64,000 nt of DNA from Nematopogon swammerdamellus (lineage: Eukaryota > Arthropoda > Insecta > Lepidoptera > Adelidae): NCBI GenBank assembly GCA_946902875.1, contig OX336345.1, positions 6,913,395 to 6,977,394 of the forward strand. The letters run 5' to 3'. A program made the position numbers and the translations under genes. How positions within the stretch are numbered: the first letter of the stretch is position 1; every line of letters begins with the position of its first letter. The notes below the pieces were generated by a model. That model did not search any database. It worked only from the letters and a program-made list of their open reading frames with translations, and was not told where the DNA came from. Below are positions 7,700 to 60,541 of this stretch, piece by piece.

Positions 7700-8000
7700 A
7701 TGGGCGTAATAGCCCGACTGCATCTCTCTCCGTGCATGTCGTAAAAGGCGACTAAGGCATAATAACAAGATACCGTGCTAAAGGACGACAGGTTAGCAAC
7801 CTCTCACCTTGACACGGTCCTTCCACCGAGTCATGCAGAAGGTGAGTATTCGTGCCTTACTTGCTGCTTGATAGCTATCTTGTCCTAAAACATTGCTAAA
7901 TTTGGCGGTCAGTGTTGTGCTGTAAATTAACAAGAGTAATTGCAGCACAACACGTATTACTCTGTTTAACCCAATTTTCGGAATACAGCGTGTGAATGTA
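7700..8000 (+). repeat. Repeat B, copy 1 (diverged, nearly full length)
   Basis: The order of blocks matches the better copy at 37443-37785: GCATCTCTCTCCGTGCATGT, TCGTAAAAGGCGACTAAGG, CACCGAGTCATGCAG, CGTGCCTTACTTGCTGCTTG, the internal hairpin region (GTGTTGTGCTG ... CAGCACAACAC) and ATACAGCGTGTGAATGTA at the end. The family ends in a short (ATGT)n-like run. It is non-coding. Confidence 0.8.
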
Positions 8001-8950: not shown

Positions 8951-9182
8951 TTATGAAACTTTAGATAGACAAGAAAGGAAACCGGTCTAAAGTCTAGGCA
9001 CGAAATCATATGAAATAGAATAAGTAAGTATTCATTCAAAAAGATGCCTCAAATGTCATCAAAGCGACAGGGGCGTAACCGCAAACGCTATTGCGCCTTT
9101 CGTAATACGAAATTGAATACGTGAGGTGATTCGACCGCAGGCAAAATATTCGAAAGTGAGGAAGCGGCATCTACGTTTGTTA

Positions 9183-9532
9183 GCCTCGGTAGCTCGGTGG
9201 TGCGATCGGTCGACTGTTGTTAAGCAACCCTGAGCGCGCTCAGCTCAGTACATACCTGGATGGGTGACCTCTCCACCGTTGGAGGCTAACCGTGGTGCAG
9301 ATTCCACGTAAAACTTTAGGCCCCTTCACCACAGCACTGAATAAAACGTTGTCGGTCGAAACGGCTATGTAAATAGTTCGTGTTTTCCGTCCAGTTCAGT
9401 GCAGCCGACATGAAATGAAGGAAAACACTGACATGGCACCTAGTTCACGCGGTGTTATGGGCTGACACCACAGATTTTGTAGGTGATGTAGCCAAGCCAA
9501 CCGTGTCAGTTTCAATATAAATAAATAAAAAA
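9183..9532 (+). mobile_element. SINE-A copy 1
   Basis: The head has a tRNA-like A box (GGTAGCTCGGTGG), then a 5S-rRNA-like block (GTTAAGCAACCCTGAGCGCG, then CTGGATGGGTGACC) and a degraded B-box-like region. The body has CCGCACTGAAT-type sequence, CGGTCGAAACGGCTATGTAA and GTCCAGTTCAGTGCAGCCG. The tail is GTAGGTGATGTAGCC, CCGTGTCAGTTTCA and an A-rich end. It would be transcribed by RNA polymerase III and retroposed by a partner LINE. Confidence 0.85.
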
Positions 9533-9540
9533 GTTGTCAA

Positions 9541-9845
9541 CTTTGGTAGCTCGGTGGCGCGATGCCTCGGTGCGAGATCTCCGTAGCTAAGCAACGTACG
9601 TAACGTAAGTACGGTGGACTTTGCCTGAGTGACCGTTCAACCGTTGAGGCTGCCCGTGGTTCGGATTACACGTATAGCTGCAGGTCCCTTCCCTTACATG
9701 TTCTAATTGGTTTTAGGGTATGACCACCGCACTGAATGAAAGTTAAGTCGAAGCGGATTGTAAATAGTTCATGTTTCCATCCAGTTCAGTGTAACCGGCA
9801 TGACCAAAGGGAAACACTGACATGGCATCTAGTTCATTAAGTACA
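9541..9845 (+). mobile_element. SINE-A copy 2 (3' truncated)
   Basis: It begins TTTGGTAGCTCGGTGGCGCG, with a decayed 5S-like block (CTAAGCAACG ... GAGTGACCG) and a B-box-like GGTTCGGATTACACG. It continues through AGGTCCCTTCCCTT and CCACCGCACTGAATGAAAG to TGACATGGCATCTAGTTCAT, where similarity stops before the usual tail. It lies directly downstream of copy 1, in the same orientation. Confidence 0.8.
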
Positions 9846-10135: not shown

Positions 10136-10552
10136 TTTTTTTTATGTAATCCGGTATGGGTGGCTGAGTCAGAGGGGCCAAAGCACATGCTCTGACTAGC
10201 CAATATCACCTCCGAGAAGGTAGGTGCCATACCGGAGACTTCCCTGGATTGCTGGCTATACTGGACTAGAGGAGAACACAACCGAGGCTGCTATGCGGCC
10301 ATCTTACATCCAGTACGGTGGTACCAAACCAGTCGGCTACAATTTGAGCCTACCACCTAGTAAGGGGCAAGGGAAGGGACCTGCAGTTTTACACCGGTTC
10401 CGAACGGTGAAGCAGCAGGTGTAGGTACACCTACACCTGCACGTAATTTTTTTCGTCAGAAAAAACTCATTGGTACCTACACGGCGACCGGATTCGAACC
10501 GCGGACCTCCCGCATGAGAAGCCGATGCCCAAACCACTCGGCCACCCGCCGC
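10136..10552 (-). mobile_element. SINE-C copy 1 (full length, tRNA-headed)
   Basis: Read on the minus strand it begins with a tRNA-like head (10552 to ~10482), passes through a central block shared with SINE-A (GTAAAACTGCAGGTCCCTTC, CTTACTAGGTGGTAGG, TTTGGTACCACCGTACTGGA), then a family-specific body (AAGATGGCCGCATAGCAG, TGTTCTCCTCTAGTCCAGTA, TCTCCGGTATGGCACCTACC), and ends CCATACCGGATTACAT plus an A run. It is the most complete copy in the window and the reference for the others. Confidence 0.85.
10482..10552 (-). other. tRNA-like SINE head (Leu/Ser type), not a functional tRNA gene
   Basis: The minus strand carries a perfect A box (TGGCCGAGTGG) and a perfect B box (GGTTCGAATCC) about 45 bp apart, flanked by short acceptor-like complementary ends (GGCG ... 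CGCC). An anticodon-arm-like stretch (CGGCTTCTCATGCGGG) lies between. The A box is of the type seen in tRNA-Leu/Ser. It is followed directly by SINE body and is not a free-standing gene. Confidence 0.75.
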
Positions 10553-10844
10553 TTATGTGAAACGTGTGAGTTTTCAATATAATATTTTTTTTTATAACGA
10601 AATAGATGTGTGACATGTATAACAGTTCTGATTGTTTTAATACTTTTCCTCGCAAGGTAATCGTATCGAGAGCCAGTGACGAAAGTGTTGGACCGAAAAC
10701 GTGTTACGAGACTCATCTGCAAGTCGGAATACATTTTTCAAGGCAGTGGCTTGAAAGTTCGCGACTATTGGTGCGGAAAATTCGAATTGACGCCGATGTT
10801 AGAATACGTTATGTGAGATTATGAGAACACTACAAATACAAAAA

Positions 10845-15555: not shown

Positions 15556-15756
15556 AATGGAAACGGACACGTTTGGTTACATCACCTGCAACATCTGTGA
15601 TGTCAGCCCATAACACCGGGTGAACTAGGTGTCATGTCAGTGCTGCCCTTCATTTCATGTCGGCTACACTGAACTGGACGTGAAACACGAACTATTCACA
15701 TAGCCATTTGGACCGACGTATCGTTCAGTGCGGTGGTACCAACCCGGCCCGGATAA
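15556..15756 (-). mobile_element. SINE-A copy 3, 3' half (split by a LINE)
   Basis: Read on the minus strand: GGGTTGGTACCACCGCACTG, GTCCAGTTCAGTGTAGCCG, CCGGTGTTATGGGCTGAC, then a TCCATTTTAAAAAG tail. The 5' half is at 27145-27312. GATAA occurs at both junctions (15752-15756 and 27145-27149), the expected target duplication of the LINE between them. Confidence 0.85.
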
Positions 15757-16419: not shown

Positions 16420-17723
16420 TGTTACCTGTCTATTTTTATAGCAATATAAATAAAACCCAGGTGTACAATTTGTAGATTTATTCGGTCGTTTCTACAATTA
16501 ATTGGTATATAAATAGGGTCTCTGGATTAAATACAAGTCCTCGGCGTGCTGCGTCCGCTCGGCGAACAAAGAATTCCTACCTACCTACCTAGTCAGCTGA
16601 CTAAGGAAGAATAGGAGCGATCGCACCGGTTTATTGACGGACGGCGTGGTCTTCTTCTCCGTCTTCCCGCACAATCAGCCGGAGGCCTAGCCTCTCGACG
16701 CGCAGCTCCCACGGCACGGCGTTCCGCTGAACACAGCAGAGCCGCCGGCAGCCCAGCGACAGGTGAATCGCTGACTCGCAGGGGTGGCGTCGACGGGGCA
16801 CTCTCCGACCGTCCTGACCGCTCGCGCGGTGACGGGAGCGGAAGTCGGGAAGTTGTCTTGGAGCGAAGCCCGTACCAAACTCTGCGCGATAGGGATAAAT
16901 ATCACACGCCGCACTAACATAATCACCATGGAGCGGCGGTGGGGCCCTATCACGCAGTAAAAACACAATTTACCATTTTGTGAAACGTGGCTCCGATGTC
17001 GGTAGCCGTTATAAAAATTTTACATGTTGAAATTTACAGATTTTATATAAATTGGCGTTCGCCTACTCACCCACTGACGTGGAGTTTACTTCTCGTTCAA
17101 GGCGAGATGTGAAAATATTCCTAATACTCTTTTCACATTATTTTAAGCTTGAACAAAAGAATTGTGCTGAGAGCGTGCACCAATCTCTGACAGCCGGAAG
17201 AAAAGTAATATCTGTCGCACTGTCCTATCCTTCGTGGTTCGCTCTCGGGTCCGCGACTCCGTTCGCTCTTTCTCTTGACGTGCTGCCTCGCTCCCTGGTA
17301 TCGGCGAGCGAGACAGCACTTCATTCGTCTGTGAGCAGCGGCGCGGACCGTCGAACGAGTTGACGCCCATTAAATGTTAATTTATTTGATTCTACTCACA
17401 ACTGTGAAGTAAAGATTTTACAATTAATACCATTATTTTATTTATCATTTTAACTATTAATATTATCCAATACCGGCGCACGAAGCGACGCGACTCTGAT
17501 CGAGTTGCTGTGTTGGTTGATGTCAGATCAAAGATTGATTGAATCGAATTGATTGATGGTTGATTGACGTCAGCTGCAAACATAACGCGCGGCCGTATTC
17601 TGGTCGCCGTATTTGAGTCGCTTTCGTCCGTGAGCGGCGGCAATATTTAAAATACTGAAACAAATAACTAAACAGAACCGAAGGGTCGTGTTACGGCAGA
17701 CCTTGCGGTTTTGCAACGTAACA
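16420..17723 (-). repeat. 3' LTR of the Ty3/gypsy element
   Basis: In element orientation it begins TGTTACGTTGC and ends GACAGGTAACA, the canonical TG...CA form with a 6-bp inverted terminus. Short frames inside (for example 16631-16966) recur identically in the other LTR and are not genes. Confidence 0.95.
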
Positions 17724-24131: not shown

Positions 24132-25435
24132 TGTTACCTGTCTATTTTTATAGCAATATAAATAAAACCCAGGTGTACAATTTGTAGATTTATTCGGTCG
24201 TTTCTACAATTAATTGGTATATAAATAGGGTCTCTGGATTAAATACAAGTCCTCGGCGTGCTGCGTCCGCTCGGCGAACAAAGAATTCCTACCTACCTAC
24301 CTAGTCAGCTGACTAAGGAAGAATAGGAGCGATCGCACCGGTTTATTGACGGACGGCGTGGTCTTCTTCTCCGTCTTCCCGCACAATCAGCCGGAGGCCT
24401 AGCCTCTCGACGCGCAGCTCCCACGGCACGGCGTTCCGCTGAACACAGCAGAGCCGCCGGCAGCCCAGCGACAGGTGAATCGCTGACTCGCAGGGGTGGC
24501 GTCGACGGGGCACTCTCCGACCGTCCTGACCGCTCGCGCGGTGACGGGAGCGGAAGTCGGGAAGTTGTCTTGGAGCGAAGCCCGTACCAAACTCTGCGCG
24601 ATAGGGATAAATATCACACGCCGCACTAACATAATCACCATGGAGCGGCGGTGGGGCCCTATCACGCAGTAAAAACACAATTTACCATTTTGTGAAACGT
24701 GGCTCCGATGTCGGTAGCCGTTATAAAAATTTTACATGTTGAAATTTACAGATTTTATATAAATTGGCGTTCGCCTACTCACCCACTGACGTGGAGTTTA
24801 CTTCTCGTTCAAGGCGAGATGTGAAAATATTCCTAATACTCTTTTCACATTATTTTAAGCTTGAACAAAAGAATTGTGCTGAGAGCGTGCACCAATCTCT
24901 GACAGCCGGAAGAAAAGTAATATCTGTCGCACTGTCCTATCCTTCGTGGTTCGCTCTCGGGTCCGCGACTCCGTTCGCTCTTTCTCTTGACGTGCTGCCT
25001 CGCTCCCTGGTATCGGCGAGCGAGACAGCACTTCATTCGTCTGTGAGCAGCGGCGCGGACCGTCGAACGAGTTGACGCCCATTAAATGTTAATTTATTTG
25101 ATTCTACTCACAACTGTGAAGTAAAGATTTTACAATTAATACCATTATTTTATTTATCATTTTAACTATTAATATTATCCAATACCGGCGCACGAAGCGA
25201 CGCGACTCTGATCGAGTTGCTGTGTTGGTTGATGTCAGATCAAAGATTGATTGAATCGAATTGATTGATGGTTGATTGACGTCAGCTGCAAACATAACGC
25301 GCGGCCGTATTCTGGTCGCCGTATTTGAGTCGCTTTCGTCCGTGAGCGGCGGCAATATTTAAAATACTGAAACAAATAACTAAACAGAACCGAAGGGTCG
25401 TGTTACGGCAGACCTTGCGGTTTTGCAACGTAACA
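24132..25435 (-). repeat. 5' LTR of the Ty3/gypsy element
   Basis: Same length as the 3' LTR and, as far as I can read, the same sequence. It should carry the element's promoter in its minus-strand 5' portion. Its first codons (from 25435 downward) create a spurious C-terminal extension of the LINE frame that runs into it. Confidence 0.95.
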
Positions 25436-25439: not shown

Positions 25440-27159
25440 CTACTCCCCAGAATTCTAACCCGAATATCATTGTGGAGTAGAAATATCCGTAATATGCGTT
25501 TACCATTGTTTTTATGTCACATGATTGGGCCAGAATTCTGAGACAGTAGCATGCTTTACTCAATTTGGCACAAACACTGTCGATGTGGTCCGAGTACCTG
25601 AGGTTGTTGTCGAGCGTAAGACCTAAGAATTTATGGGACTTTTGGAACTCGATGACATCTCCGAAATGTCGAACACACATATTATTTCCTAAATCCCCTC
25701 TATTGATTATCGTGAAATGCACACATCCTGTTTTTGATTTATTCATCAGTAGCTTGTTTGCTGTGAACCAGTCGAATAAAGCTATTAAGCAGTATTCTAA
25801 CTTGTTTAGCAATTCTGTTTGATCTTTTGCTTTAACAATTGCATTGGCATCGTCTGCGTACAATATTAGTAATGCGCATTTTATTGCATCTGGTAAATCA
25901 TTAATGAAAAGTAAGAATAATAGTGTCGACAATATGGAACCCTGTGGAACGCCGTATGTTATTTTGAAGGGTGCCGAGATTGAATCCGTCAGTTCGAGGT
26001 CAAGCATGCTTTTTACTGACACTTGCGCTTTTCTATCGTGTAGGTATGTTCGAAACCAGTCCAAAGCAATCCCACGTATTCCGTAGAATTCTAATTTGTT
26101 GAGCAACAAACCGTGGTCTACGAGATCAAACGCCTTAGACAGGTCCACGAACACACCCGCGACTCGTTCTTGTTTGTCAAGACTCTCCAGTATGGCTGTG
26201 GTGAGTTGGTAGGTGGCTGACGATATAGATCTGCCGGGACGGAATCCATGCTGCGAGTCGGTAAGTATTCCATTCAGTTTTATAAAGTTCATGAGCCTGC
26301 CGTAGATAGCTTTTTCGAAAATTTTGGAAAATACAGGAAGTATTGATACCGGCCTATAGTTTTCCACTGCGGATTCCGCTCCTTTTTTGAACAATGGCAA
26401 AATCTTAGCGTTTGAGAGAGCTGAGGGGAATGTTCCTGTTTGAAAAGATAAATTAATAAGAAATGTTATTATATTTAATATAGGTCCATAACATTTTTTA
26501 AGAAGGGATACAGGCATTCCGTTAATATCTTGTGAATTTTTGTTTTTTAGTGATCCTATAAGCTTCATGATTTCTTCCGTGTCGCAAGGCCTGAGGAAAA
26601 ACGTATTTGAAATTGGCTTAATGTTTTCCCTGAGTAGTTTATAAGATGTTTCCGTACATTGCGGCATGGTAAGGAGAAGTTTTTCTGCAATGCTCGAGTA
26701 ATGTTTACCAAATTCTTCTGCTACTCTCTGTGGTTCTGAGGTTACCTGGCCTTCACTAGTAACTAGTTTAATATTTTTTACGATTCCCCTGTGAGTGCCC
26801 TTCGAAGTTTTTCGTTTCACAATGTTCCACATTGTCTTCTGCTTGTTATCACTGTTTTCTATTATTGCTTTATAGTAATTAGCCTTTTCAGTTTTAATTT
26901 GCACGTCATATTTAACTTTTACTTTATTTAGTGTATTTGTGTATTCGCGGCTTTCCGTTGTGCGTCTTAGCATATCAAAAATTTCAATTTTATTCTTTAG
27001 GTTTTTACTATCTTCTGAAAGCCATGGTGCTAATTCTTTTCTTTTATTTGTACTATATTTCTTTGGTGTAATTGGGAAACTTGAATTAAAAATGTATGTG
27101 AATTGAGTAAAAAATAAATCAAAAGCGATATTTGCAAAACCCTTGATAAACCCTACCAC
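25436..27159 (-). pseudogene. CR1/L2-like LINE ORF2, RT part (5' truncated, interrupted)
   Basis: 575 codons before the LTR junction. RT blocks in order: AKILPLFKKG and ENYRPVSILPVFSKIFEKAI (about 251-285), DSQHGFRPGRS (301-311), VFVDLSKAFDLVDH (336-349), YGVPQGSILSTLLFLLFIND (402-421), LILYADDANAIV with the catalytic YADD at 434-437. The endonuclease domain is absent: the element is truncated at 27144, and the first five codons (MVGFI) are mostly read from the SINE it landed in. No internal stop or frameshift is seen, so this is a young copy killed by truncation and then by the Ty3/gypsy insertion. I cannot separate CR1, L2 and Daphne by eye. Confidence 0.85.
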
Positions 27160-27312
27160 TTAGTAAGGCAAGAAGGGAAGGGACCTACAGCTTAACTTAG
27201 AATCCGAAACTTGGTCAGCATCCAATGGTCGAGCGGTCACCCATCCAAGTAAGCGCCCAGGGTTGCTTAATAACAGTTGACCGACCGCACCACTGAGCTA
27301 CCGAGGCTGAAA
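27145..27312 (-). mobile_element. SINE-A copy 3, 5' half (head)
   Basis: The minus strand begins GCCTCGGTAGCTCAGTGG, then the 5S-like TTAAGCAACCCTGGGCGC and ACTTGGATGGGTGACCGC, a TTTCGGATTC B-box-like region, and AGGTCCCTTCCCTT with CTTACTAAGTGGTAGGG. It breaks at the LINE. It sits inside the decayed Jockey-like LINE. Confidence 0.85.
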
Positions 27313-29682: not shown

Positions 29683-30076
29683 TTTTTTATTTATTTTTTT
29701 ATGGAAACTGACACGGTTGGCTACATCACCTACAACGTCCGCGATGTCAGCCCATAACACCGGGTGAACTAGGTGCCATGTCAGTGCTTCCCCCTTTGAT
29801 CGTGCCGGCTACACTGAACTGGTCGGAAAACACAAACTATTTACATAGCCGTTTCAACCGACGTTTCATTCAGTGCGGTGGTACCAACCCGGGCGGGTTA
29901 AGCCCTACCACCAAGTAAGATTAGGAGGGAAGGGACCTACAGTTTTACGAGGAATCCGAACCTCGGTCAGCCTCCAACGGTCAGCGGTCACCCATCCAAG
30001 AACTGACCGCACCCAGCGTTGCTTAACATTCAATAGCGACAGTTGACTGTCTGCACCACTCAGCTATCGAGGCGGG
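29683..30076 (-). mobile_element. SINE-A copy 4 (full length, inserted in repeat B)
   Basis: On the minus strand: GCCTCGATAGCTGAGTGG head, 5S-like GTTAAGCAACGCTGGGTGCG and TTGGATGGGTGACCGC, GAGGTTCGGATTCCTC, the shared core, body and A-rich tail. It interrupts repeat B between GCAGCAA and CCTGCTACATGACTCGG. With copy 8 it is one of the two best-preserved copies. Confidence 0.88.
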
Positions 30077-30238
30077 CCTGCTACATGACTCGGTGAAAGG
30101 ATCGCGCCAAGGTGAGAGGTGGCTACCCTGTCGAACCTATAGCTTGTCCTTATCCCTTAGCCACTTTTTACGACGTGCACGGGGAGAGATACAGTGGGGC
30201 TATTCTTTTTAAGTACCAGTCCCACACGGTACCCCAGA
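30077..30238 (-). repeat. Repeat B, copy 3, 5' half
   Basis: CTGCTACATGACTCGGTG through CCACTTTTTACGACGTGCAC to GTCCCACACGGTA, the minus-strand version of the repeat B 5' end. Confidence 0.75.
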
Positions 30239-30239
30239 C

Positions 30240-31128
30240 GCTATTTTCTCTATAAACGTATCTACTATAATATCTATTATTCTATTATACTTCAAAATAG
30301 TTTTCTAGTAGTAGTACTTAGATTAAATGGACAACTTTAGAATTATTTATTAATTAACCTTTGCATGCCGCAGCTATCACCTCGGAAAGCGCGTGTGACC
30401 GACAGACATACCCATGGACCATTTTGTAGGCATCAGTGGCTACGGAACCCTAGAAAAAAAAAACAAAGATAAGAACCCAATTATGAATTCACCGGGCTGT
30501 GAAAAGGTGTCAAAACAATGTCCATCTCCCGTCCGCGGGCGGCTCGGAGGTGCGATTGCTAATGTATGATGACGTGCGCGTGATTTTGTTGCCTATTAAC
30601 TTGATAAAGATGACAGATAAGAAATTGTTTTATTAGAGTGAGTCGACCTGTGAGAAGCGTATCGGTGTATAAAGTTAATTAAATGGTAGGTTACATTTAT
30701 ATAATAATACCTAATTCGTAATATGTCGTTGAATGTGGGATATAGTGAGCTTCGTTGATAAAAACAGTTCTATAAATTAATTGAATGTTTGTGGAAAAAC
30801 ATTTAACTTAGGGCCACTTTAACCACTGTGGTGTAAAATGTATCCACTAAAGCCATATAATAAAAAAAGTCTCGGACGCAAACCAAAGCTACAAATGGAC
30901 CTAAAAAGTTGTAAGATCCCATGCAGAGCCAGGTTTTTTCATATCATTGAAGACCCAATTCAATAATGTTGCAAATAATCAATATTAGTTATTCGATCCA
31001 TTTAACATCTTCATTTCTATAAAACCATATCTTGACTTGACAATCAAACAGCACAAACAAATCGCTTCCCAAACTATCTAGGTATATAAATAACTATATA
31101 GTAATAATAATAAACTAACTAGGTATTG
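30240..31128. other. No gene recognised
   Basis: AT-rich. A short GACAGACATACC motif lies near 30400 beside 'GGAACCCTAG', a possible family-H relic. No coding sequence. Confidence 0.4.
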
Positions 31129-31459
31129 TACCGTGTGGGGCCGGTACTTTAAAAGAATAGCCCCACTGCATCTCTCCCCGTGTATGTCGTAAAAGGCGAC
31201 TAAGGGATATGACTCCCTTCTTATATCACTAGGTGGTAGGGTTTAACCCGCCCGGGTTGGTACCACCGCACTGAATGAAAGGTCGGTCGAAACGGCTATG
31301 TAAATAGTTTGTGTTTTCCGTCCAGTTCAGTGTAGCCGGCACGACCGAAGGGAAGCACTGACTTGGCACCAAGTTCACCCCGTGTTATGGGCTGACATCA
31401 CGGATGTTGTAGGTGATGTAGCCAAACATGTCAGTTTCAATAAAAAAAAATAAAAAAAC
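31129..31459 (+). mobile_element. Chimeric SINE: repeat B head fused to SINE-A body (copy 5)
   Basis: TACCGTGTGGGGCCGGTACT through GTCGTAAAAGGCGACTAAGG is repeat B. After GGATATGACTCCCTTCTTAT the sequence is SINE-A core (CTAGGTGGTAGGGTTTAACC), body, tail and A run. The same junction occurs at 42136-42466. It lacks the tRNA/5S-like head. Confidence 0.85.
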
Positions 31460-31712: not shown

Positions 31713-32012
31713 AATTAAGCAAATCTGGGCGCGGTCAAAAATTGGGATGGGTTCGACCGTTGAAGCTGGCCGTGATTCGGATTCCTCGCAAAACTGTTAA
31801 GTAGGTGTCTTCTCTTCTTACCTTACTAGGTGGTAGGGCGGTGGTCGCTCGAAGCGGCTATTTAAATTGTTCGTGTTTCCCGTCCAGTTCAGTGTAGTCG
31901 TCGAGACCAAAGGGAAGCACTGACATGGCGCCTACTTCACCAAAGTTTTGTGTGCTGATACCACGAATGTTGTAGGTAATATAACCAACCGTGTCATTTT
32001 CCATAAAAAAAA
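31713..32012 (+). mobile_element. SINE-A copy 6 (5' truncated, internally deleted)
   Basis: It starts within the 5S-like block (TTAAGCAAATCTGGGCGCGG), has GGATTCCTCGCAAAACTG and CCTTACTAGGTGGTAGGG, loses the usual CCACCGCACTG segment, then has AGCGGCTATTTAAATTG, GTCCAGTTCAGTGTAG and the tail CCGTGTCATTTTCCAT plus A run. Confidence 0.8.
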
Positions 32013-32569
32013 AGTCAACTTAAATATTGCCACCATCATAATTACTACTATTCAATATTACATCAAAGCTTGCCTGCCAACCAACGCGTTCTTCCACTTA
32101 ATCCACCTAACCTCCATCATTCGCACGGAGATAACGATGCGCATATTGAAGCGGTCCCCAACTTCGTTACCAGACAGTTCTAATCGACTGCATTCAGCAT
32201 GTGGACTTTGCGAAGATCTAATGAGCTGAACGGGATTTGATTTCCGGCTTCGGCGCTGCGCCTGTGATCCGAAAGTCACGAGCCCCGTACGACGCGCGGG
32301 ATTCCGTACGATACATATACATATAAAATAACGGGTTTGTACTTTGTTCGATGGCTGATAGGCGCTGCGCGCCGCGACACATGCATCACCTTCCCTCCAA
32401 ACAATGCAAAGACGGACTCACTAATTTTAGAGAATTTTGGCAGTTTCGTTCGGTTTCGCAATCTCTATACGCCCGTGCGTAAGGTGTCTCTTTATTAGAT
32501 GCAAATATTTTGGGAGGGTTACATACCCGCCATAATAAACACGTTAAGCAAAAAAATTCTATGTTCTTA
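32013..32569. other. No gene recognised
   Basis: Short overlapping frames on both strands without motifs. Nothing supportable. Confidence 0.35.
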
Positions 32570-37950: not shown

Positions 37951-38133
37951 TTTTTATGTAATTCGGTACATAATCCGGTATGGGTGGCAGAGTCGGAGGG
38001 GCCAAAGCATAATTATGTTCAGACCAGCCAATATCACCTCCGAGAAGGTAGGTGCCATACCGGAGCCTCCCTGGATTGCTGACTATACTGGACTAGAGGA
38101 AAACACAACCGAAGCTTCTATGTGGTCATCTGT
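37951..38133 (-). mobile_element. SINE-C copy 4 (truncated)
   Basis: ATGTAATTCGGTACATAATC, then GTATGGGTGGCAGAGTCGG, continuing to CTTCTATGTGGTCATCT. It is cut there at the start of SINE-A copy 8. Confidence 0.8.
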
Positions 38134-38518
38134 CAGCCTCGATAGCTCAGTGGTGCAGACAGGCAACTGTCGCTATTGAATGTTAAGCAACGCTGGGTGC
38201 GGTCAGTACTTGGATGGGTGACCGCTGACCGTTGGAGGCTGACCGAGGTTCGGATTCCTCGTAAAACTGTAGGTCCCTTCCCTCCTAATCTTACTTGGTG
38301 GTAGGGTTTAACCCGCCCGGGTTGGTACCACCGCACTGAATGAAACGTCGGTCTAAACGGCTATGTAAATAGTTTGTGTTTTCCGACCAGTTCAATGTAG
38401 CCGGCACGATCAAAGGGGGAAGCACTGACATGGCACCTAGTTCACCCGGTGTTATGGGCTGACATCACGGACGTTGTAGGTGATGTAGCCAACCGTGGCA
38501 GTTTTAAAAAAAAAAAAA
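38134..38518 (+). mobile_element. SINE-A copy 8 (full length, reference copy)
   Basis: Head: A-box-like GATAGCTCAGTGGTGCAG, then GTTAAGCAACGCTGGGTGCG and CAGTACTTGGATGGGTGACC, which match the internal control region of 5S rRNA (A box, intermediate element, box C), then B-box-like GAGGTTCGGATTCCTC with one extra base. Core: GTAAAACTGTAGGTCCCTTC, CTTACTTGGTGGTAGGG and GGGTTGGTACCACCGCACTG. Body: CGGCTATGTAAATAGTTTG and ACCAGTTCAATGTAGCCGG. Tail: GTAGGTGATGTAGCC, then an A run. Confidence 0.9.
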
Positions 38519-38870
38519 CGTAATCCGGTATGGGTGGCAGAGTCAGAGTTCCGACCAGCCAATATCACCTCCGAGAAGGTAGGTGCCATACCGGAGCCTC
38601 CCTGGATTGCTAGCTATACTGGATTAGAGGAGAACACAACCGAGGCTTCTATGTGGTCATCTTACATCCAGTACGGTGGTAACAACCCAGTCGGATACAA
38701 TTTGAGCCTACCACCTGGTAAGGAGCAAGGGAAGGGACCTACAGTTTTACACCGGTTCCGAACAGTGAAGCAGCTGGTGTAGATATGCACGTAAATGTTT
38801 TCGTCATAACAAACTCATTGGTACACGCGGACCGGATTCGAACCTCAGACCCCTCGCATCAGAAGCCGAG
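38519..38870 (-). mobile_element. SINE-C copy 5 (nearly full length)
   Basis: It matches copy 1 from GTAATCCGGTATGGGTGGC through the shared core to the tRNA-like B box (CGGATTCGAACC on the plus strand) and stops at GCATCAGAAGCCGAG, so the A-box half of the head is missing. Confidence 0.85.
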
Positions 38871-42113: not shown

Positions 42114-42160
42114 TTTAAAGTACCGGCCCCACACGTACCGTGTGGGGCCGGTACTTTAAA
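42114..42160. repeat. Palindrome of two opposed repeat B 5' ends
   Basis: AAAGTACCGGCCCCACACG is immediately followed by TACCGTGTGGGGCCGGTACT, two repeat B starts facing each other. Confidence 0.85.
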
Positions 42161-42466
42161 AGAATAACCCCACTGCATCTCTCCCCGTGTATGTCGTAAA
42201 AGGCGACTAAGGGATATGACTCCCTTCTTATATTACTAGGTGGTAGGGTTTAACCCACCCGGGTTGCTACCACCGCACTGAATGAAAGGTCGGTCGAAAC
42301 GGCTATGTAAATAGTTTGTGTTTTCCGTCCAGTTCAGTGTAGCCGGCACGACCGAAGGGAAGCACTGACGTGGCACCAAGTTCACCCGGTGTTATGGGCT
42401 TACATCACGGATGTTGTAGGTGATGTAGCCAACCGTGTCAGTATCCATAAAAAAAAAAAAAAAAAA
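42136..42466 (+). mobile_element. Chimeric SINE: repeat B head fused to SINE-A body (copy 9)
   Basis: Same structure and same fusion point (GGATATGACTCCCTTCTTAT) as 31129-31459, with few differences over ~310 bp and an 18-bp A run. This supports a real subfamily, not an accident at one locus. Confidence 0.88.
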
Positions 42467-50460: not shown

Positions 50461-51930
50461 CTAGCTGAGCCCGCGGCTCCGCTCGCGTGAAATTCGTATT
50501 CCAAAGAAGAATGTAAGTAACTAAGGGCGAGGCCGAAAGCCGAGCTGCGTTCAGGTAATCGATAAACCTTCTTAAAGAAAGTAACTAACTAAGGGCGAGG
50601 CCGAAGGCCGAGCTGCTTTCAGGTAAACGATAAACCTTTCTCAAATAAAGGAAGTAAGTAAGGGCGAGGCCGAAGGCCGAGCTGCGTTCAGGAAGACGAC
50701 AAACCTTCTGGAAGAAAGGAAGGAACTAAGTGCGAGGCCGAAGGCCGAGCTGTGTTCAGGTAAACCAAAAACCCTCTTCCGCCTTCGGGCCTCGCCCTTA
50801 AAGACTTCCTTTCTTCGATAGAATATAATATCGTTTACTCAATCTATTTATTTCATATAAATAAAAAAGTAATATTAATAACTAAAGAATTAAACCTACC
50901 TAACAAACATTAAAATAACTATCAATACGGGCATTTTCAAATGTTCTTAGAGCGGCATTACCCCGCTGGATGGCAAAGCTTACCCTTTGAATGAAGTACA
51001 TAAGCCCTTGATGACGGGACACCAGTTGCGTCAACCAGCTCAAGCCTTTTTTGGCTTCACTGCTCCACGGACCGAGGGTTTCAACCGCAAACGCAACAAA
51101 TTCGAAATCTTGACTTATATTTCTATATTTGCTGCGTTGGAGGCTCTCCGCCCCAGCCTCGCCTCGGCCGCGCCAGCCACTCTTGAAGATGTCCTAACGT
51201 GACTTGGAGCCAATGTGAGAACAAAAGTGGCGTCCCACATCAAAGAACTACCCTTAGTCCATGGCACTAAGGTCTCTAGCATCGGGCCTCTTGCCATCCA
51301 GCCGGGAATAACCGGGAGGTTCTAGGATGTACGGTATATTTGCCGTTAGAAGCGTGGACTTTATAATAAAATTTAAATTAAATTAACTCAATCTTAATAT
51401 TAATTAACTTTATTCGAGATGGTTTAGCTTCTTCCTGAACGCAGCTCGGCCTTCGGCCTCGCCCTTAGTTACTTGCTTTCTTCGAGATGGTTTATCATTT
51501 GTCAGAACGTAGCTCGGCCTTCGGCCTCGCCTTAGTTGCTTACTTTCTTCAAGATGGTTTAGCTTCTTCCTGAACGCAGCTCGGCCTTCGGCCTCGCCCT
51601 TAGTTACTTGCTTTCTTCGAGATGGTTTTTCAATTATCCGAACGTAGCTCGGCCTTCGGCCTCGCCTTAGTTGCTTACTTTCTTCAAGATGGTTTAGCTT
51701 CTTCCTGAACGCAGCTCGGCCTACGGCCTCGCCCATAGTTACTTATTTTCTTCAAGAATGTTTTTCTTCTTCCTGAAATCAGCTCCGCCTTTCGCCTCGC
51801 CCTTAGTTACTTTCATCGAGAAAGAATATCGTTTACGTGAGCGCAGATCCGCCTTCGGGCCCGCCTTTAGTTACTTACTTTCTTTTTTTTAAATACGAAT
51901 TTCACGCGAGCGAAGCCGCGGGCAACAGAT
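50461..51930. mobile_element. Palindromic minisatellite element, locus 1
   Basis: The ends are inverted: CTAGCTGAGCCCGCGGCTCC at 50461 and GCGAAGCCGCGGGC near 51908-51921, each adjoining CGTGAAATTCGTAT. Inside are about four plus-oriented ~68-bp units (50523-50770), then a short reversed piece, a LINE fragment, and about seven minus-oriented units (51411-51890). Same family as 52437-57990. Confidence 0.8.
50930..51335 (-). pseudogene. Non-LTR retroelement ORF C-terminal fragment, copy 3
   Basis: Minus-strand segments read [47 protein letters not shown] and YFIQRVSFAIQRGNAA with frame breaks. They correspond to the two 5'-truncated copies elsewhere but extend further N-terminally. It occupies the middle of minisatellite locus 1. 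Confidence 0.6.
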
Positions 51931-52436
51931 ATATAAATTTTATTGCACCAATGACAGCGACATAACTTCGACTTTCAATTATTATTTTTATTTATCAAAC
52001 AATTTGTCACCGGCCAGCTCACGTCGAGATGACAGTTCTCCGTTGTCAACATGACATTTAAAATTGTTTTTACCTTTACTTTGGACTACGTGATTTTAAA
52101 TGCGCAATAATGTTTATAATTGATAATTTTTTTTTATTTTTGTTAATTTTTTTTACGTATTATGTTAACCCGGCATATAAACTGCCACTATACAAAGTTT
52201 CGTCTAATTCCGTTCAGTGGTTTTTGCGTGATGCGCGTACAGACAAACAAACAAACAAACAAAAATTTTAAAAACTGTTCTAACATGTTCACTATCTCAT
52301 TTTAAGGCACCCTGGTTAGTTTTTTTCCGAATACATTCAATGTACAGACTTTCTTACCTCTACGATTTTATTATATGTATAGATAGATGTATAATTAGTT
52401 AGCGCTTGACGATTAGTACCTCAACTTATTAATCGA
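51931..52436. other. Spacer between the two minisatellite loci
   Basis: AT-rich. A (CAAA)n patch lies near 52245-52262 beside TTCCGTTCAGTGGTTTTTGC, a motif shared with other repeat ends. Confidence 0.45.
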
Positions 52437-52479
52437 CTAGCTGAGCCCGCGGCTCCGCTCGCGTGAACTTCGTATTTCA

Positions 52480-53760
52480 AAGAAGAAAGTAAGTAGCTGA
52501 GGGCGAGGCAGAAGGCCGAGCTGCGTTCAGGAAGACTATAAACCTTCTCGAAGAAAGTAAGTAACTAAGGGCGAGGCCGAAGGCCGAGCTGCGTTCTGGA
52601 AGACTATAAACCTTCTCGAAGAAAGCAAGTAACTGAGGGCGAGGCCGAAGGCCGAGCTGCGTTGAGGAAGACTATAAACTTTCTCGAAGAAAGCAAGTAA
52701 CTGAGGGCGAGGCCGAAGGCCGAGCTGCGTTGAGGAAGACTATAAACCTTCTCGAAGAAAGTAAGTAACAGTGGGCGAGGCCGAAGGCTGAGCTGCGTTT
52801 AGGAAGACTATAAACCTTCTCGAAGAAAGTAAGTAACAGTGGGCAAGGCCGAAGGCCGAGCTGCGTTCAGGAAGACGATAAACTTTCTCGAAGAAAGCAA
52901 GTAACTGAGGGTGAGGCCGAAGGCCGAGCTGCGTTGAGGAAGACTATAAACCTTCTCGAAAAAAGTAAGTAACAAAGGGTGAGGCCGAAGGCCGAGCTGC
53001 GTTCAGGAAGACGTTAAACTTTCTCGAAGAAAGCAAGTAACTGAGGGCGAGGCCGAAGGCCGAGCTGCGTTGAGGAAGACTATAAACCTTCTCGAAGAAA
53101 GTAAGTAGCAAAGGGCGAGGCCGAAGGCCGAGCTGCGTTCAGGAAGACGATAAACTTTCTCGAAGAAAGTAAGTAACTGAGGGCGAGGCCGAAGGCCGAG
53201 CTGCGTTCAGGAAGACTATAAACCTTCTCGAAGAAAGTAAGCAACAGAGTGCGAGGCCGAAGGCCGAGCTGCGTTCAGGAAGACGATAACCTTTTCGAAG
53301 AAAGTAAGTAACAGAGGGCGAGCCCGAAGGCCGAGCCGCGTTCAGGAAAAATGTAAACCTTCTCGAAGAAATTAAGTAATTGACGGCGAGGCCGAAGGCC
53401 GAGCTGCGTTCAGGAAGACTATAAACCTTCTTCATGAAAGTACGTAACTGAGGGCGAGGCCGAAGGCCGAGCTGCGTTCAGGAAGACTATAAACCTTCTT
53501 GATTAAAGTAAGTAACTGAGGGCGAGGCCGAAGGCCGAGCTGCGTTCAGGAAGACGATAAACCTTCTCGAAGAAATTAAGTAATTGAGGGCGAGGCCGAA
53601 GGCCGAGCTGCGTTCAGGAAGACTATAAACCTTCTTGATGAAAGTACGTAACTGAGGGCGAGGCCGAAGGCCGAGCTCCGTTCAGGAAGACTATAAACCT
53701 TCTTGATGAAAGCGAGTAATTAAGGGCGAGGCCGAAGGCCGAGTTGCGTTCAGGAAGACG
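52480..53760 (+). repeat. ~68-bp minisatellite, plus array (~19 units)
   Basis: The unit contains GGGCGAGGCCGAAGGCCGAG, CTGCGTTCAGGAAGACTATA and AACCTTCTCGAAGAAAGTAA. Units differ by point changes and 1-2 bp indels. The minus-strand frame at 53139-53435 is a by-product. Confidence 0.95.
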
Positions 53761-53762
53761 AT

Positions 53763-54235
53763 CCCCGTCCCCGTCCCCGTCCCCGTCCCCGTCCCCGTCC
53801 CCGTCCCCGTCCCCGTCCCCGTCCCCGTCCCCGTCCCCGTCCCCGTCCCCGTCTCCGTCTCCGTCTCCGTCTCCGTCTCCGTCTCCGTCCCCGGCCCGGT
53901 CCCGTCCCCGTCCCCGTCCCCGTCCCCGTCCCCGTCCCCGTCCCCGTCCCCGTCCCCGTCCCCGTCCCCGTCCCCGTCCCCGTCCCCGTCCCCGTCCCCG
54001 TCCCCGTCCCCGTCCCCGTCCCCGTCCCCGTCCCCGTCCCCGTCTCCGTCTCCGTCTCCGTCTCCGTCTCCGTCTCCGTCTCCGTCTCCGTCTCCGTCTC
54101 CCTCTCCCTCTCCCTCTCCCTCTCCCTCTCCCTCTCCCTCTCCCTCTCCCTCTCCCTCTCCCTCTCCCTCTCCGTCTCCCTCTCCCTCTCCCTCTCTCTC
54201 TCCCTCCCCTCCGCCTTCCCTCCCCCTCCCCATCA
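53763..54235. repeat. Hexanucleotide microsatellite: CCCCGT, CTCCGT and CCCTCT blocks
   Basis: About 470 bp with alternating blocks: CCCCGT, CTCCGT, then CCCCGT again (to ~54040), CTCCGT (to ~54097) and CCCTCT (to ~54200). The minus strand is GGGGAC-rich and could form G-quadruplexes. It begins in the middle of a minisatellite unit. The Ser-Pro, Asp-Gly and Arg-Pro repeat frames are artefacts. Confidence 0.95.
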
Positions 54236-54239
54236 TTTA

Positions 54240-54530
54240 ATCCTAAAATCTAATTTTGAAATCATCCCCTATTTTTTTAATTTAAGGGTTGATTTAACTA
54301 AAACGCTGAAACACGTAATTCTTTATTATATACCAAAAGCCTAAATATGAATCGTTATATCCCTAACTCGAGAAATGCTAGGTTCCCCATACAAACTTTC
54401 ATCCCCTATTTCACCCCCTTATGGGTTGTTTTTTGAGACAAAAGGTAGCCTATGTCCTTCCTCAGGATCCAATTCATCTCCGTGCAATATTTTATCGAAA
54501 TCTGTTCAGCGGTTTAGCCGTGAAAAGGTA

Positions 54531-54586
<56 letters not shown>

Positions 54587-54610
54587 CAGAGTTACTTTCG
54601 AATTTATAAT
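54240..54610 (-). repeat. Family F repeat (left arm of the central hairpin)
   Basis: AATTTAAGGGTTGATTTAAC, ACGCTGAAACACGTAATTC, GACAAAAGGTAGCCTATGTC, CTGTTCAGCGGTTTAGCC, a (CAGA)n run, then AACAGAGTTACTTTCGAATT at the end. Confidence 0.85.
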
Positions 54611-54614
54611 CCAT

Positions 54615-54652
54615 ACTTCCATACTAATATTATAAATTCGAAAGTAACTCTG

Positions 54653-54688
<36 letters not shown>

Positions 54689-55640
54689 TACTTTTTCACG
54701 CCTAAACCGCTGAACAGATTTTGATAAAATATTGCATGGAGATTAATTGCATCCTAAGGAAGGACATAGGCTACCTTTTGTCCCAAAAAACAACCCTTAA
54801 GGGGTTGAAATAGGGGATGAAAGTTTGTATGGGGAATCCAGCATTTCTCAAGTTAGAGATATGAAAATTCATATTTAGGCTTTTGGTATGAAATAAAGAG
54901 TTACGTGTTTCAGCGTTTTTGCTAAATCAACCCTTAAATTAAAATAGGGTATGATTTCAAAATTATATTTTATGATTTTATAAAATTTAGTACGGAGATG
55001 AATTGCATTCTGAGGAAGGATATAGGCTACCTTTTGTCTCAAAAAACAACCCTTAAGGGGGTGAAATATGGGATGAAACATTGTATGGGGAATCCAGCAT
55101 TTCTCAAGTTAGAGATATGAAAATTCATATTTAGGCTTTTGGTATGAAATAAAGAGTTACGTGTTTCAGCGTTTTTGCTAAATCAACCCTTAAATTAAAA
55201 TAGGGGATGATTTCAAAATTATATTAAAGGATTTTATAAAATTTCGTACAGAGATGAATTGCATCCTGAGGAAGGACATAGGCTACCTTTTGACTCAAAA
55301 ACAACCCTTAAGGGGGTGAAATAGTGGATGAAAGTTTATATGCGGAAACCAGCATTCTCAAGTTAGGGAGGGGGTGATTTCAAAATTATATTAAAGGATT
55401 TTATAAAATTTTGTACGGAGATGAATTGCATCTTGAGGATGGACATAGGCTACCTTTTGTCTCAAAAAACAACCCCTAAGGAGGTGAAATGGGGGGGGGG
55501 GGGGGGGGGTGAAAGTTTGTATAGGAGTATCGGTTTTTTTAAAGGTAGGAACTTGAAAATCATAATTCTAGCTACTCATCATAAATACATAATTGTTTCA
55601 GGGATTTACCATTTAAAGGGGGGGGGGGGGGGGTAATTTG
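54615..55640 (+). repeat. Family F repeat, expanded by ~250-bp tandem duplications
   Basis: It starts CATACTAATATTATAAATTC and (CTGT)n, then TTTCACGCCTAAACCGCTGA. After that, a ~250-bp segment (ACGGAGATGAATTGCAT, ACATAGGCTACCTTTTG, CAACCCTTAAGGGGGTGAAA, ACGTGTTTCAGCGTTTTTGC) occurs about four times, near 54724, 54975, 55232 and 55400; the last copies are shortened. Two G runs (19 and 16 bases, 55491-55509 and 55618-55633) interrupt it. Confidence 0.8.
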
Positions 55641-55649
55641 GGGTGACAG

Positions 55650-57950
55650 TGGCCTTGCCCTTGGTTATGTTCATTCGTTACTTAGTTACTTACTTTTTCG
55701 AGAACGTTTATCGTCTTCCTGAACGCAGCTCGGCCTTCGACCTCGCCCTTAATTACTTACTTTCTTAGAGATGGTTTATTGTATTCCAGAAAGCAGCTTA
55801 GCCTGAAGCCTCGCCGCTAGTTACTTACTTTATTTAAAAGGTTTATCGTTTACCTAAACGCAGCTCGGCCTTCGGCCTCGCCCATAGTTACTTACTTTAA
55901 TCGAGAATGTTTTTCCTCTTCCTGAACGCAGCTCGGCCTTCGGCCTCACCCATAGTTTATACTTACTTTCACCGAGAAGGTTTATAGTCTTCCTGAAAGC
56001 AGCTTGGCCTTCGGCCTCGCCCTCAGTTACTTACTGTCTTCGAGAAGGTTTATGGTCTTCCTGAACGAAGCTCGGCCTTCGGCCTTGCCCTTAGTCACTT
56101 ACTTTCATCGATAAGGTTTATAGTCTTTCTGAACGCAGCTCGGCCTTCGGCTTCGCCCTTAGTTACTTACTTTCATCGATAAGATTTATAGTCTTCCTGA
56201 ACGCAGCTCGGCCTTCGGCCTCGCCCTCAGTTACTTACTGTCTTCGAGAAGGTTTATGGTCTTCCTAAACGCTGCTCGGCCTTCGGCCTCGCCCTTAGTT
56301 ACTTACTTTCATCGATAAGGTTTATAGTCTTCCTGAACGCAGCTCGGTCTTCGGCCTCGCCCTTAGTTACTTACTTCCTTCGATAAGGTTTACAGTCTTC
56401 CTGAACGCAGCTCGGCCTTCGGCTTCGCCCTTAGTTACTTACTTTCATCGATAAGATTTATAGTCTTCCTGAACGCAGCTCGGCCTTCGGCCTCGCCCTC
56501 AGTTACACTCTGTCTTCGAGAAGGTTTATGGTCTTCCTGAACGCAGCTCGGCCTTCGGCCTCGCCCTTAGTTACTTACTTTCATCGATAAGGTTTATAGT
56601 CTTCCTGGACGCAGCTCGGCCTTCGGCCTCGCCCTTAGTTACTTACTTCCTTCGATAAGGTTTATAGTCTTCCTGAACGCAGCTCGGCCTTCGGCCTCGC
56701 CCTCAGTTACTTACTGTCTTCGAGAAGGTTTATAGTCTTACTGAACGCAGCTCGGCCTTCGGCCTCGCCCTTAGTTACTTACTTTCATCGATAAGTTTTA
56801 TAGTCTTCCTGAACGCAGCTCGGCCTTCGGCCTCGCCCTTAGTTACTTACTTTCATCGATAAGGTTTATAGTCTTCCTGAACGCAGCTCGGCCTTCGGCC
56901 TCGCCCTTAGTTACTTACTTTCTTCGAGAAGGTTTATAGTCTTCGTGAACGCAGCTCGACCTTCGGCCTCGCCCTTAGTTTCTTACTATGTTCGAGAAGG
57001 TTTATAGTTTTCCTTAACGCAGCTCGGCCTCCGGCCTCGCCCTCAGTTGCTTATTTTCTTCGAGAAGGTTTATGGTCTTCCTGAACGCAGCTCGGCCTTC
57101 GGCCTCGCCCTTAATTACTTACTTTCTTAGAGATGGTTTATCGTCTTCCTGAACGCAGCTCGGCCTTCGGCCTCGCCCTTAGTTACTTACTTTCATCGAT
57201 AAGGTTTATAGTTTTCTTGAACGCAGCTCGGCCTTCGGCCTCGCCCTTAGTTACTTACTTTCTTCGAGAAGGTTTATAGTCTTCCTGAACGCAGCTCGAC
57301 CTTCGGCCTCGCCCTTAGTTTCTTACTATGTTCGAGAAGGTTTATGGTTTTCCTGAACGCAGCTCGGCCTTCGGCCTCGCCCTTAGTTACTTACTTTCTT
57401 CGAGAAGGTTTATAGTCTTCCTGAACGCAGCTCGGCCTTCGGCCTCGCCCTCGGTTGCTTACTTTCTTCGAGAAGGTTTATGGTCTTCCTGAATGTACCT
57501 CGGCCTTCGTCCTCGCCCTTAATTACTTACTTTCTTAGATAAGGTTTGTCGTCTTCCTTAACGCAGCTCGGCCTTCGGCCTCGCCCTCAGTTACTTATTG
57601 TCTTCGAGAAGGTTTATGGTCTTCCTGAACGCAGCTCGGCCTTCGGCCTCGCCCTTAATTACTTACTGTCTTAGAGATAGTTTATCGTCTTCCTGAACAC
57701 AGCTCGGCCTTCGGCCTCGCCCTCAGTTACTTACTTTCTTCGAGAAGGTTTGTAGTCTTCCTGAACGCAACTCGGCTTTTGGCCTCGTCCTTTGTTACTT
57801 ACTTTCATCGAAAAGGTTTATAGTCTTCCTGAACGCAGCTCGGCCTACGGCCTCGCCCTTTGTTACTTACTTTCTTAGAGATGGTTTATCGACTTCCTGA
57901 ACGCAGCTTGGTCTTCGGCCTCGCCCATAGTGACTTACTATCTTCTTTGA
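55650..57950 (-). repeat. ~68-bp minisatellite, minus array (~34 units)
   Basis: The reverse of the unit at 52480-53760: GAACGCAGCTCGGCCTTCGG, CCTCGCCCTTAGTTACTTAC, TTTCTTCGAGAAGGTTTATA, GTCTTCCT. Higher-order repeats are visible; for example, a variant pair starting CTTCGCCC at 56151 recurs at 56423. Confidence 0.95.
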
Positions 57951-57999
57951 GATACGAATTTCACGCGAGCGGAGCCGCGGGCTCAGCTAGTATTAGTAT

Positions 58000-58535
58000 A
58001 TGGATTCATACCAAAAGCCTAAATATGAATCGTTATATCCCTAACTGGAGAAATGATGGGTTACCTATACAAACGTTCATCCCCTATTTCACCCCCTTAA
58101 GGGTTGTTTTTTGAGACAAAAGATAGCCTATGTCCTTCCTCAGGCAGGATGCAATTCATCTCCGTACAAAATTTTATAAAATCCTAAAATCTAATTTTGA
58201 AATCATCCCCTATTGTAATTTAAGGGTTGATTTAGCAAAAAACGCTGAAACACGTAATTCTTTATTTCATACCAAAAGCCTAAATATGAATCGTTATATC
58301 CCTAACTCGAGAAATGCTAGGTTCCCCATACAAACTTTCATTCCCTATTTCACCCCCTTAAGGGTTGTTTTTTGAGACAAAAGGTAGCCTATGTCCTTCC
58401 TCAGGATCCAATTCATCTCCGTGCAATATTTTATCGAAATCTGTTCAGCGGTTTAGGCGTGAAAAGGTAACAGACAGACAGACAGACAGACAGACAACAG
58501 AGTTACTTTCGAATTTATAATATTAGTATGGATGG
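58000..58535 (-). repeat. Family F repeat, two tandem units then the terminus
   Basis: TACCAAAAGCCTAAATATG occurs twice (~58010 and ~58272), TTAAGGGTTGTTTTTTGAGA twice, then CTGTTCAGCGGTTTAGGCG, (CAGA)n and AACAGAGTTACTTTCGAATT, ending TATAATATTAGTATGG. It is the reverse complement of the start at 54615, so 54615-58535 could be one family-F element that contains the minus minisatellite array. Confidence 0.8.
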
Positions 58536-60234: not shown

Positions 60235-60541
60235 GACCTGGATGGGTGACCGCTCGACCGTTGGAGGCTGACCGTGGTTCGCTTTCCAACTATAGGTCCC
60301 TTCCCTTCTTACCTTACTAGGTGGTAGGGCTTAACCCGCCCGGGTTGATACCACCGCACTGAATGAAAAGTCGGTCGAAGCGACTATGTAAATAGTTAGT
60401 ATTTTGCATCCAGTTCAGAGTAGCCGGTACGACCGAAGGGAAGCACTGACATGTCACCTAATTCACCAAATGTTATGGGCCGACATCACGTATGTTGGAG
60501 GTGATGTAGTCAACCGTATATCAGTTTCCATATTTAAAAAA
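60235..60541 (+). mobile_element. SINE-A copy 11 (5' truncated)
   Basis: It starts in the 5S-like block at CCTGGATGGGTGACCGCTCG, then AGGTCCCTTCCCTTCTTACC, ACTAGGTGGTAGGGCTTAAC, CCACCGCACTGAATG, the body and TCAGTTTCCAT, then A-rich. Confidence 0.85.

Follow-up and report, generated by a model that had tools for sequence, protein, structure and literature searches.

Elements that unite 5S and tRNA-SINE parts reportedly exist in vertebrates, as in AmnSINE1 and the 5S/tRNA SINEs of fruit bats. Among the Lepidoptera, the published account of HaSE3 from Helicoverpa armigera describes a 5S-derived head on the body of HaSE1, a chimera that probably arose by template switching (PMC3272025). PxSE4 and PxSE5 are described as 5S-headed lepidopteran SINEs of 389 bp, belonging to a group that includes LaSE2 and CsSE2, and a comparison of PxSE4 with the tRNA-headed ObSE2 in the same report places the difference in the first 115 bp, with a central 122 bp common to both (PMC8010984). 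Thus, with HaSE3, PxSE4/5 and ObSE2, both 5S-headed SINEs and swaps of 5S and tRNA heads on one body are already published for this order. According to two of these reports, which cite Kapitonov and Jurka, SINEs derived from 5S are thought to be weakly transcribed outside their genomic context (PMC3272025, PMC8010984), and lepidopteran SINE3 elements are described as having higher divergence upstream of the 5S promoter (Kojima 2024, PMC10886601).

The window analyzed here, a stretch of 64,000 nucleotides from contig OX336345.1 of Nematopogon swammerdamellus, contains a SINE family, SINE-A, for whose head an earlier note had proposed a composite layout, with the 5S internal control region lying between a tRNA-type A box and a B-box-like block. 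Our analysis indicates that SINE-A is probably a 5S rRNA-derived SINE of the SINE3 class, with a complete remodelled 5S head and a body related to that of a second family, SINE-B.

Copies of SINE-A and their surroundings

The copies in the window that bear a head are the following:

38132..38518, plus strand: full-length SINE-A copy (c38132), 387 bp including 13 A
29690..30077, minus strand: second young SINE-A copy (c30077), inserted in a LINE-headed short repeat
9179..9532, plus strand: older SINE-A copy with full head (c9179) and a compensated helix I change
9536..9836, plus strand: very diverged SINE-A copy (c9536), with the most 5S-like 5' half among five copies
27147..27311, minus strand: 5' part of an older, LINE-split SINE-A copy (c27311), with the remainder at 15561-15756(-)
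60236..60517, plus strand: SINE-A copy with a 5'-truncated head, from box C on
31715..32013, plus strand: SINE-A copy with a decayed partial head

The head is therefore wholly or partly present in seven copies, those at 9179, 9536, 27311(-), 30077(-) and 38132 and, as partial heads, those at about 31715 and 60236, in agreement with the earlier count of at least seven that keep some or all of it. The 5' end with the A-box-like block is retained in five of these seven, the exact 12-base box C is likewise found in five, and the exact 12-base B-box-like block occurs in two (38132 and 30077). A pattern consisting of the A-box-like block, 38-62 bases and GGATGGGTGACC occurs three times in the window and in none of 100 shuffles; pattern scans of viral and prokaryotic contig collections, which say little about an insect element, returned no matches. 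SINE-A insertions in the window number about ten, interspersed and in most cases with A-rich tails, as would be expected of SINE3, where such tails are A-rich or LINE-like. The tail of c38132 is poly(A), and this copy is 96.6% identical over 384 bp to that at 30073-29690(-). Inspection by eye of the sequence around c38132 and c30077 revealed no clear target-site duplications. The tests of box matches, conservation, 5'-half similarity, control-region spacing and helix pairing presented below were made on five copies, leaving aside the partial heads at 31715 and 60236. From the main conservation count c30077 was excluded as a near-duplicate of c38132, and it was also excluded from the tRNA test with the A box removed; the 5'-half similarity test of c9179 took positions 9179-9218.

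The copies at 9179-9836 are two SINE-A elements arranged head to tail with almost no spacer. At 37971-38869 SINE-A is flanked by a partial and a longer SINE-B copy, both on the minus strand, which have 160 bp in common; as this common part differs by several substitutions and an indel, the flanking copies look like separate insertions and not a target duplication. A LINE ending in (TTTGAC)n interrupts the copy c27311, whose two parts lie at 27311-27147 and 15756-15561 on the minus strand. An alternative reading of 27147 as a SINE-LINE chimera was rejected, given that the SINE tail resumes at 15756-15561(-) beyond the LINE and TTATC is present on either side. Within this LINE sits in turn a gypsy element; its ends (16588-17723 and 24300-25435) show 100% identity over at least 1136 bp, in a repeat that may be longer, and its insertion is therefore very recent. 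A search with part of a gypsy-type reverse transcriptase matched 1040 proteins; four of the 120 listed bear organism names, all of them lepidopteran (Mythimna loreyi, Parnassius apollo and, twice, Plutella xylostella), which suggests a moth or butterfly as host. Elsewhere, the region 51400-58500 holds two 68-bp satellite blocks in opposite orientation, forming inverted arms of about 850 bp that are 89% complementary, with 12-bp repeats between them.

The 5S-like head and its terminal stem

The head of c38132 and the start of its body comprise the following features:

38132..38244, plus strand: 5S rRNA-derived head, end to end (positions 1-120 of the 5S model RF00001)
38132..38140, plus strand: 5' strand of a stem like 5S helix I, GTCAGCCTC, with 9/9 pairs to 38235-38243
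38143..38154, plus strand: tRNA-type A-box-like block TAGCTCAGTGGT, 8/9 defined consensus positions, P 0.06
38182..38227, plus strand: 5S internal control region (box A, IE, box C), recognized by similarity z scores
38235..38243, plus strand: 3' strand of the helix I-like stem, GAGGCTGAC, recognized by pairing and the 5S model
38247..38258, plus strand: B-box-like block GGTTCGGATTCC within a short hairpin where the common body begins, its match not above chance
38248..38345, plus strand: body segment common to SINE-A and the tRNA-headed SINE-B, 73% over 105 columns, E 4e-11

The three motifs of the earlier note, TAGCTCAGTGGT (38143-38154), the 5S box C GGATGGGTGACC (38212-38223) and GGTTCGGATTCC (38247-38258), lie where it had put them. 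Its identification of a 5S internal control region including box C also stands: compared with two insect 5S sequences, this region of c38132 yields z scores of 9.1 and 10.5, and compared with the Rfam consensus one of 5.4. The boxes A, IE and C stand at their 5S spacing in c38132 and c30077; this spacing is broken in c27311, c9179 and c9536. When RF00001 is run on the head of c38132 alone it scores 22.0 bits (E 0.018), short of the model's gathering score of 38, and this match is gone once the 5' half is removed. Two other SINE-A heads scanned singly yielded no 5S match, and neither did SINE-A in the Rfam scan of the whole window. The last bases of the head (38228-38244) show no likeness to 5S in primary sequence (p 0.37-0.86), and the stretch around the A-box-like block of c38132 aligns with 5S positions 9-28 at p 0.0065, 0.023 and 0.037. 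Judged by sequence similarity, the SINE-A head derives from 5S rRNA, as the heads of SINE3 elements do, its 5' half and 3' end being the weak parts of the comparison.

The ends of the head are further connected by pairing. The 9/9 terminal pairing of c38132 was reached in none of 20000 shuffles when restricted to Watson-Crick pairs, and in 0.025% with G-U allowed. The older copy c9179 also has 9/9 pairs, with a compensated change from C-G to U-A at pair 3; the helix is perfect in two of the five copies and has 7/9 pairs (two broken) in each of the others. The covariation score over the five copies lies above that of every slid version of the helix and was reached by 55 of 500 shuffles, a control that it does not clear. 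Given that the outer nine bases pair as in 5S helix I, the region of the A-box-like block seems to fall within the 5S copy. The most fitting reading of the head is that of an entire, remodelled 5S copy and not of a 5S segment between tRNA boxes.

Affinities of the A-box-like and B-box-like blocks

The 5' half was compared with both 5S and tRNA sequences. In c9536, ungapped and in register, it matches the two insect 5S sequences at 23/49 (p 0.0025) and 22/49 (p 0.019) positions, as against 7-11 matches when shifted by one; against the Rfam 5S consensus p is 0.146. The 5' 50 bases of the other four copies are mostly not significantly similar to 5S (p 0.057-0.77), with c9179 reaching p 0.0155 in one of three tests. 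Over the same 50 bases these four copies show similarity to tRNA-Lys (p 0.001-0.013) and tRNA-Gly (p 0.008-0.042), and at p < 0.05 they match none of tRNA-Ala, tRNA-Arg and the SINE-B head. This resemblance could speak for a true composite, in which a 5S-headed SINE acquired a tRNA 5' part, A box included, by recombination, the B-box-like hairpin goes back to the T arm of a tRNA-derived SINE ancestor, and transcription relies on a hybrid promoter joining type 1 (box A/IE/C) with type 2 (A/B). Such an origin would also suit the good match of the A-box-like block, which together with box C is among the best conserved parts, and the B-box hairpin, in whose stem one pair varies on both sides, from A-U to U-A. 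Nevertheless, we consider it unlikely. With the A-box-like block removed, 15 of 16 tests (four copies by four tRNA-type references) give p > 0.05, the lowest value being 0.0455, and hence the tRNA signal is the A-box-like block itself. Moreover, the 5' nine bases are part of a 5S-type helix I, and the B-box-like block, whose match is not above chance, has an extra base relative to the consensus. ARAGORN called no tRNA in the SINE-A heads, nor did an Rfam scan in three of them, and in comparison with the few references used the head does not align with tRNA beyond the A and B boxes, as that of a tRNA-derived SINE (SINE2) would. A tRNA head with a 5S insert was rejected for the helix I pairing and the chance-level tRNA similarity beyond the A box. 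The earlier proposal of a 5S part set between tRNA-like boxes is, as an account of origin, not supported either, on these two grounds and because the B-box-like match is not above chance and belongs to the body common to SINE-B. Removal of the A-box-like block also brings the similarity of c9536 to 5S to chance or near it (p 0.058, 0.053 and 0.23), the other copies giving p 0.11 to 0.84. It is the helix I pairing and the end-to-end alignment, and not primary sequence alone, that speak for a 5S origin of bases 12-49.

Viewed singly, the box matches are weak. Three of five copies agree with the A-box consensus at 8/9 positions (P 0.055-0.07) and two at 7/9 (P 0.43 and 0.53). Among the four divergent copies the 14-base A-box-like block has a conservation of 0.92, ranking 1/117, compared with 0.84 for box C, 0.80 for the 3' part, 0.75 for the B hairpin, 0.74 for 5S box A, 0.73 for the 5' strand of helix I, 0.31 for the spacer and 0.29 for the IE region. 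In a recount that included c30077 and left out each copy in turn, four of the five sets place this block between ranks 1 and 9 of 118, and the set lacking c9536 lowers it to 6 or 21 of 118. The strict 12-base A box stands between ranks 1 and 17 of 120 in those four sets and at 11 or 28 where c9536 is omitted. Box C ranks 1 or 2 of 116 without c9536; omission of c27311 puts the A-box-like block at rank 8 or 9 and box C at 26. The top conservation rank of the A box hence depends partly on the diverged copy c9536. The block itself is real and, with the 5S box C, is among the best-kept parts of the head. These ranks bear on a second alternative, that SINE-A has a plain SINE3 head in which the A- and B-box resemblances are both due to chance. 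In line with it, neither box consensus is matched at a P value better than about 0.06, an 8/10 B-box match is present even in the insect 5S sequences, and the rank of the A box depends in part on a single diverged copy. The high rank of the 14-base block, both among the four copies and in four of the five leave-one-out sets, speaks against this alternative, which we consider improbable.

The B-box consensus is matched at 8/10 positions in two of five copies (P 0.065 and 0.076) and less well in the other three (P 0.43-0.96), in two of which the best match lies away from the named place. The block is not specially conserved, and it lies outside the 5S part. Homology between SINE-A and SINE-B becomes detectable within the B-box-like hairpin, from 38248 on; upstream of this point SINE-B carries its own tRNA-type head. 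We accordingly rejected the B box as a part of the head promoter, since it sits in the body common to SINE-B. Of the two tRNA-like boxes of the earlier note there thus remains an A-box-like block conserved upstream of the 5S region, whereas the B-box-like match does not rise above chance. The outcome which that note had held against itself, boxes at chance level or a SINE3 of a described kind, is what we find for the B box and for the SINE3 status, and in part for the A box.

Exchanged heads, a possible promoter and described relatives

Beyond SINE-A itself, related bodies are represented in the window by the following:

10145..10560, minus strand: SINE-B, a tRNA-type head on a related body, with an ARAGORN tRNA-Glu at 10480-10552
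38869-38520, minus strand: second SINE-B copy
31128..31450, plus strand: body and tail of SINE-A joined to a third kind of head, probably LINE-type
42135-42461: SINE-A body and tail under the same third head

Related bodies therefore occur under three kinds of head in this window. The third of these is probably LINE-derived; our guess is that it may be a derivative of CR1 (Zenon/Persaeus-like). The same head is also seen at 7708, 30232(-), 35625(-) and 37443, on a different short repeat.

Our preferred reading, that of a complete remodelled 5S copy, suggests a head of about 113 nt closed by the helix I-like stem, which was most likely placed on an existing SINE body by template switching of reverse transcriptase onto 5S RNA. 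Transcription by RNA polymerase III would begin with the first base of the 5S part, directed in young copies by their intact 5S control region via TFIIIA and TFIIIC. The A-box-like block, at 5S positions 12-25 and upstream of the 5S promoter, most likely arose from 5S sequence and may have been kept for helping TFIIIC to bind; the B-box-like block would be a hairpin of the shared body. SINE-A may conceivably have a working hybrid type 1/type 2 promoter. The fuller proposal, that a tRNA-type A box evolved in situ within the 5S sequence and freed the element from the upstream signals required by 5S genes, we regard as doubtful. If true, an A-box-like block kept inside a 5S head would be a simple way around weak transcription.

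With regard to the described elements, in the passages of four reports compared here, their alignment figures aside, no SINE3 is said to have an A box ahead of its 5S promoter (PMC3272025, PMC8010984, PMC10886601, PMC6740152), which is weak evidence for the absence of such a box from print. HaSE3 is like SINE-A in having a 5S head with boxes A, IE and C on a body and tail taken from a tRNA-derived SINE, HaSE1. Unlike SINE-A, it is not mentioned, in the description on which this comparison is based, as having an A-box-like block upstream of the 5S promoter (PMC3272025). SINE3-1_LycPhl, SINE3-1/2_ChrCul, SINE3-1_EnnFus and the TRIM Ajax are portrayed as having a conserved 5S promoter and a diverged sequence upstream, where SINE-A has its A-box-like block; for the SINE3 elements among them the account mentions no tRNA A box, and Ajax, unlike SINE-A, is an LTR element (PMC10886601). 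PxSE4 ends in (TGA)n and PxSE5 in (ATGT)n, whereas SINE-A ends in poly(A). The likeness noted between SINE-A (387 bp) and PxSE4 (389 bp) concerns length and layout, and the junction reported between ObSE2 and PxSE4 is of the same kind as that between SINE-B and SINE-A (PMC8010984). By its length, layout and head exchange SINE-A fits the lepidopteran SINE3 group; apart from a possible role of its A-box-like block, it is one more member of that group and a clear local case of related bodies under several heads.
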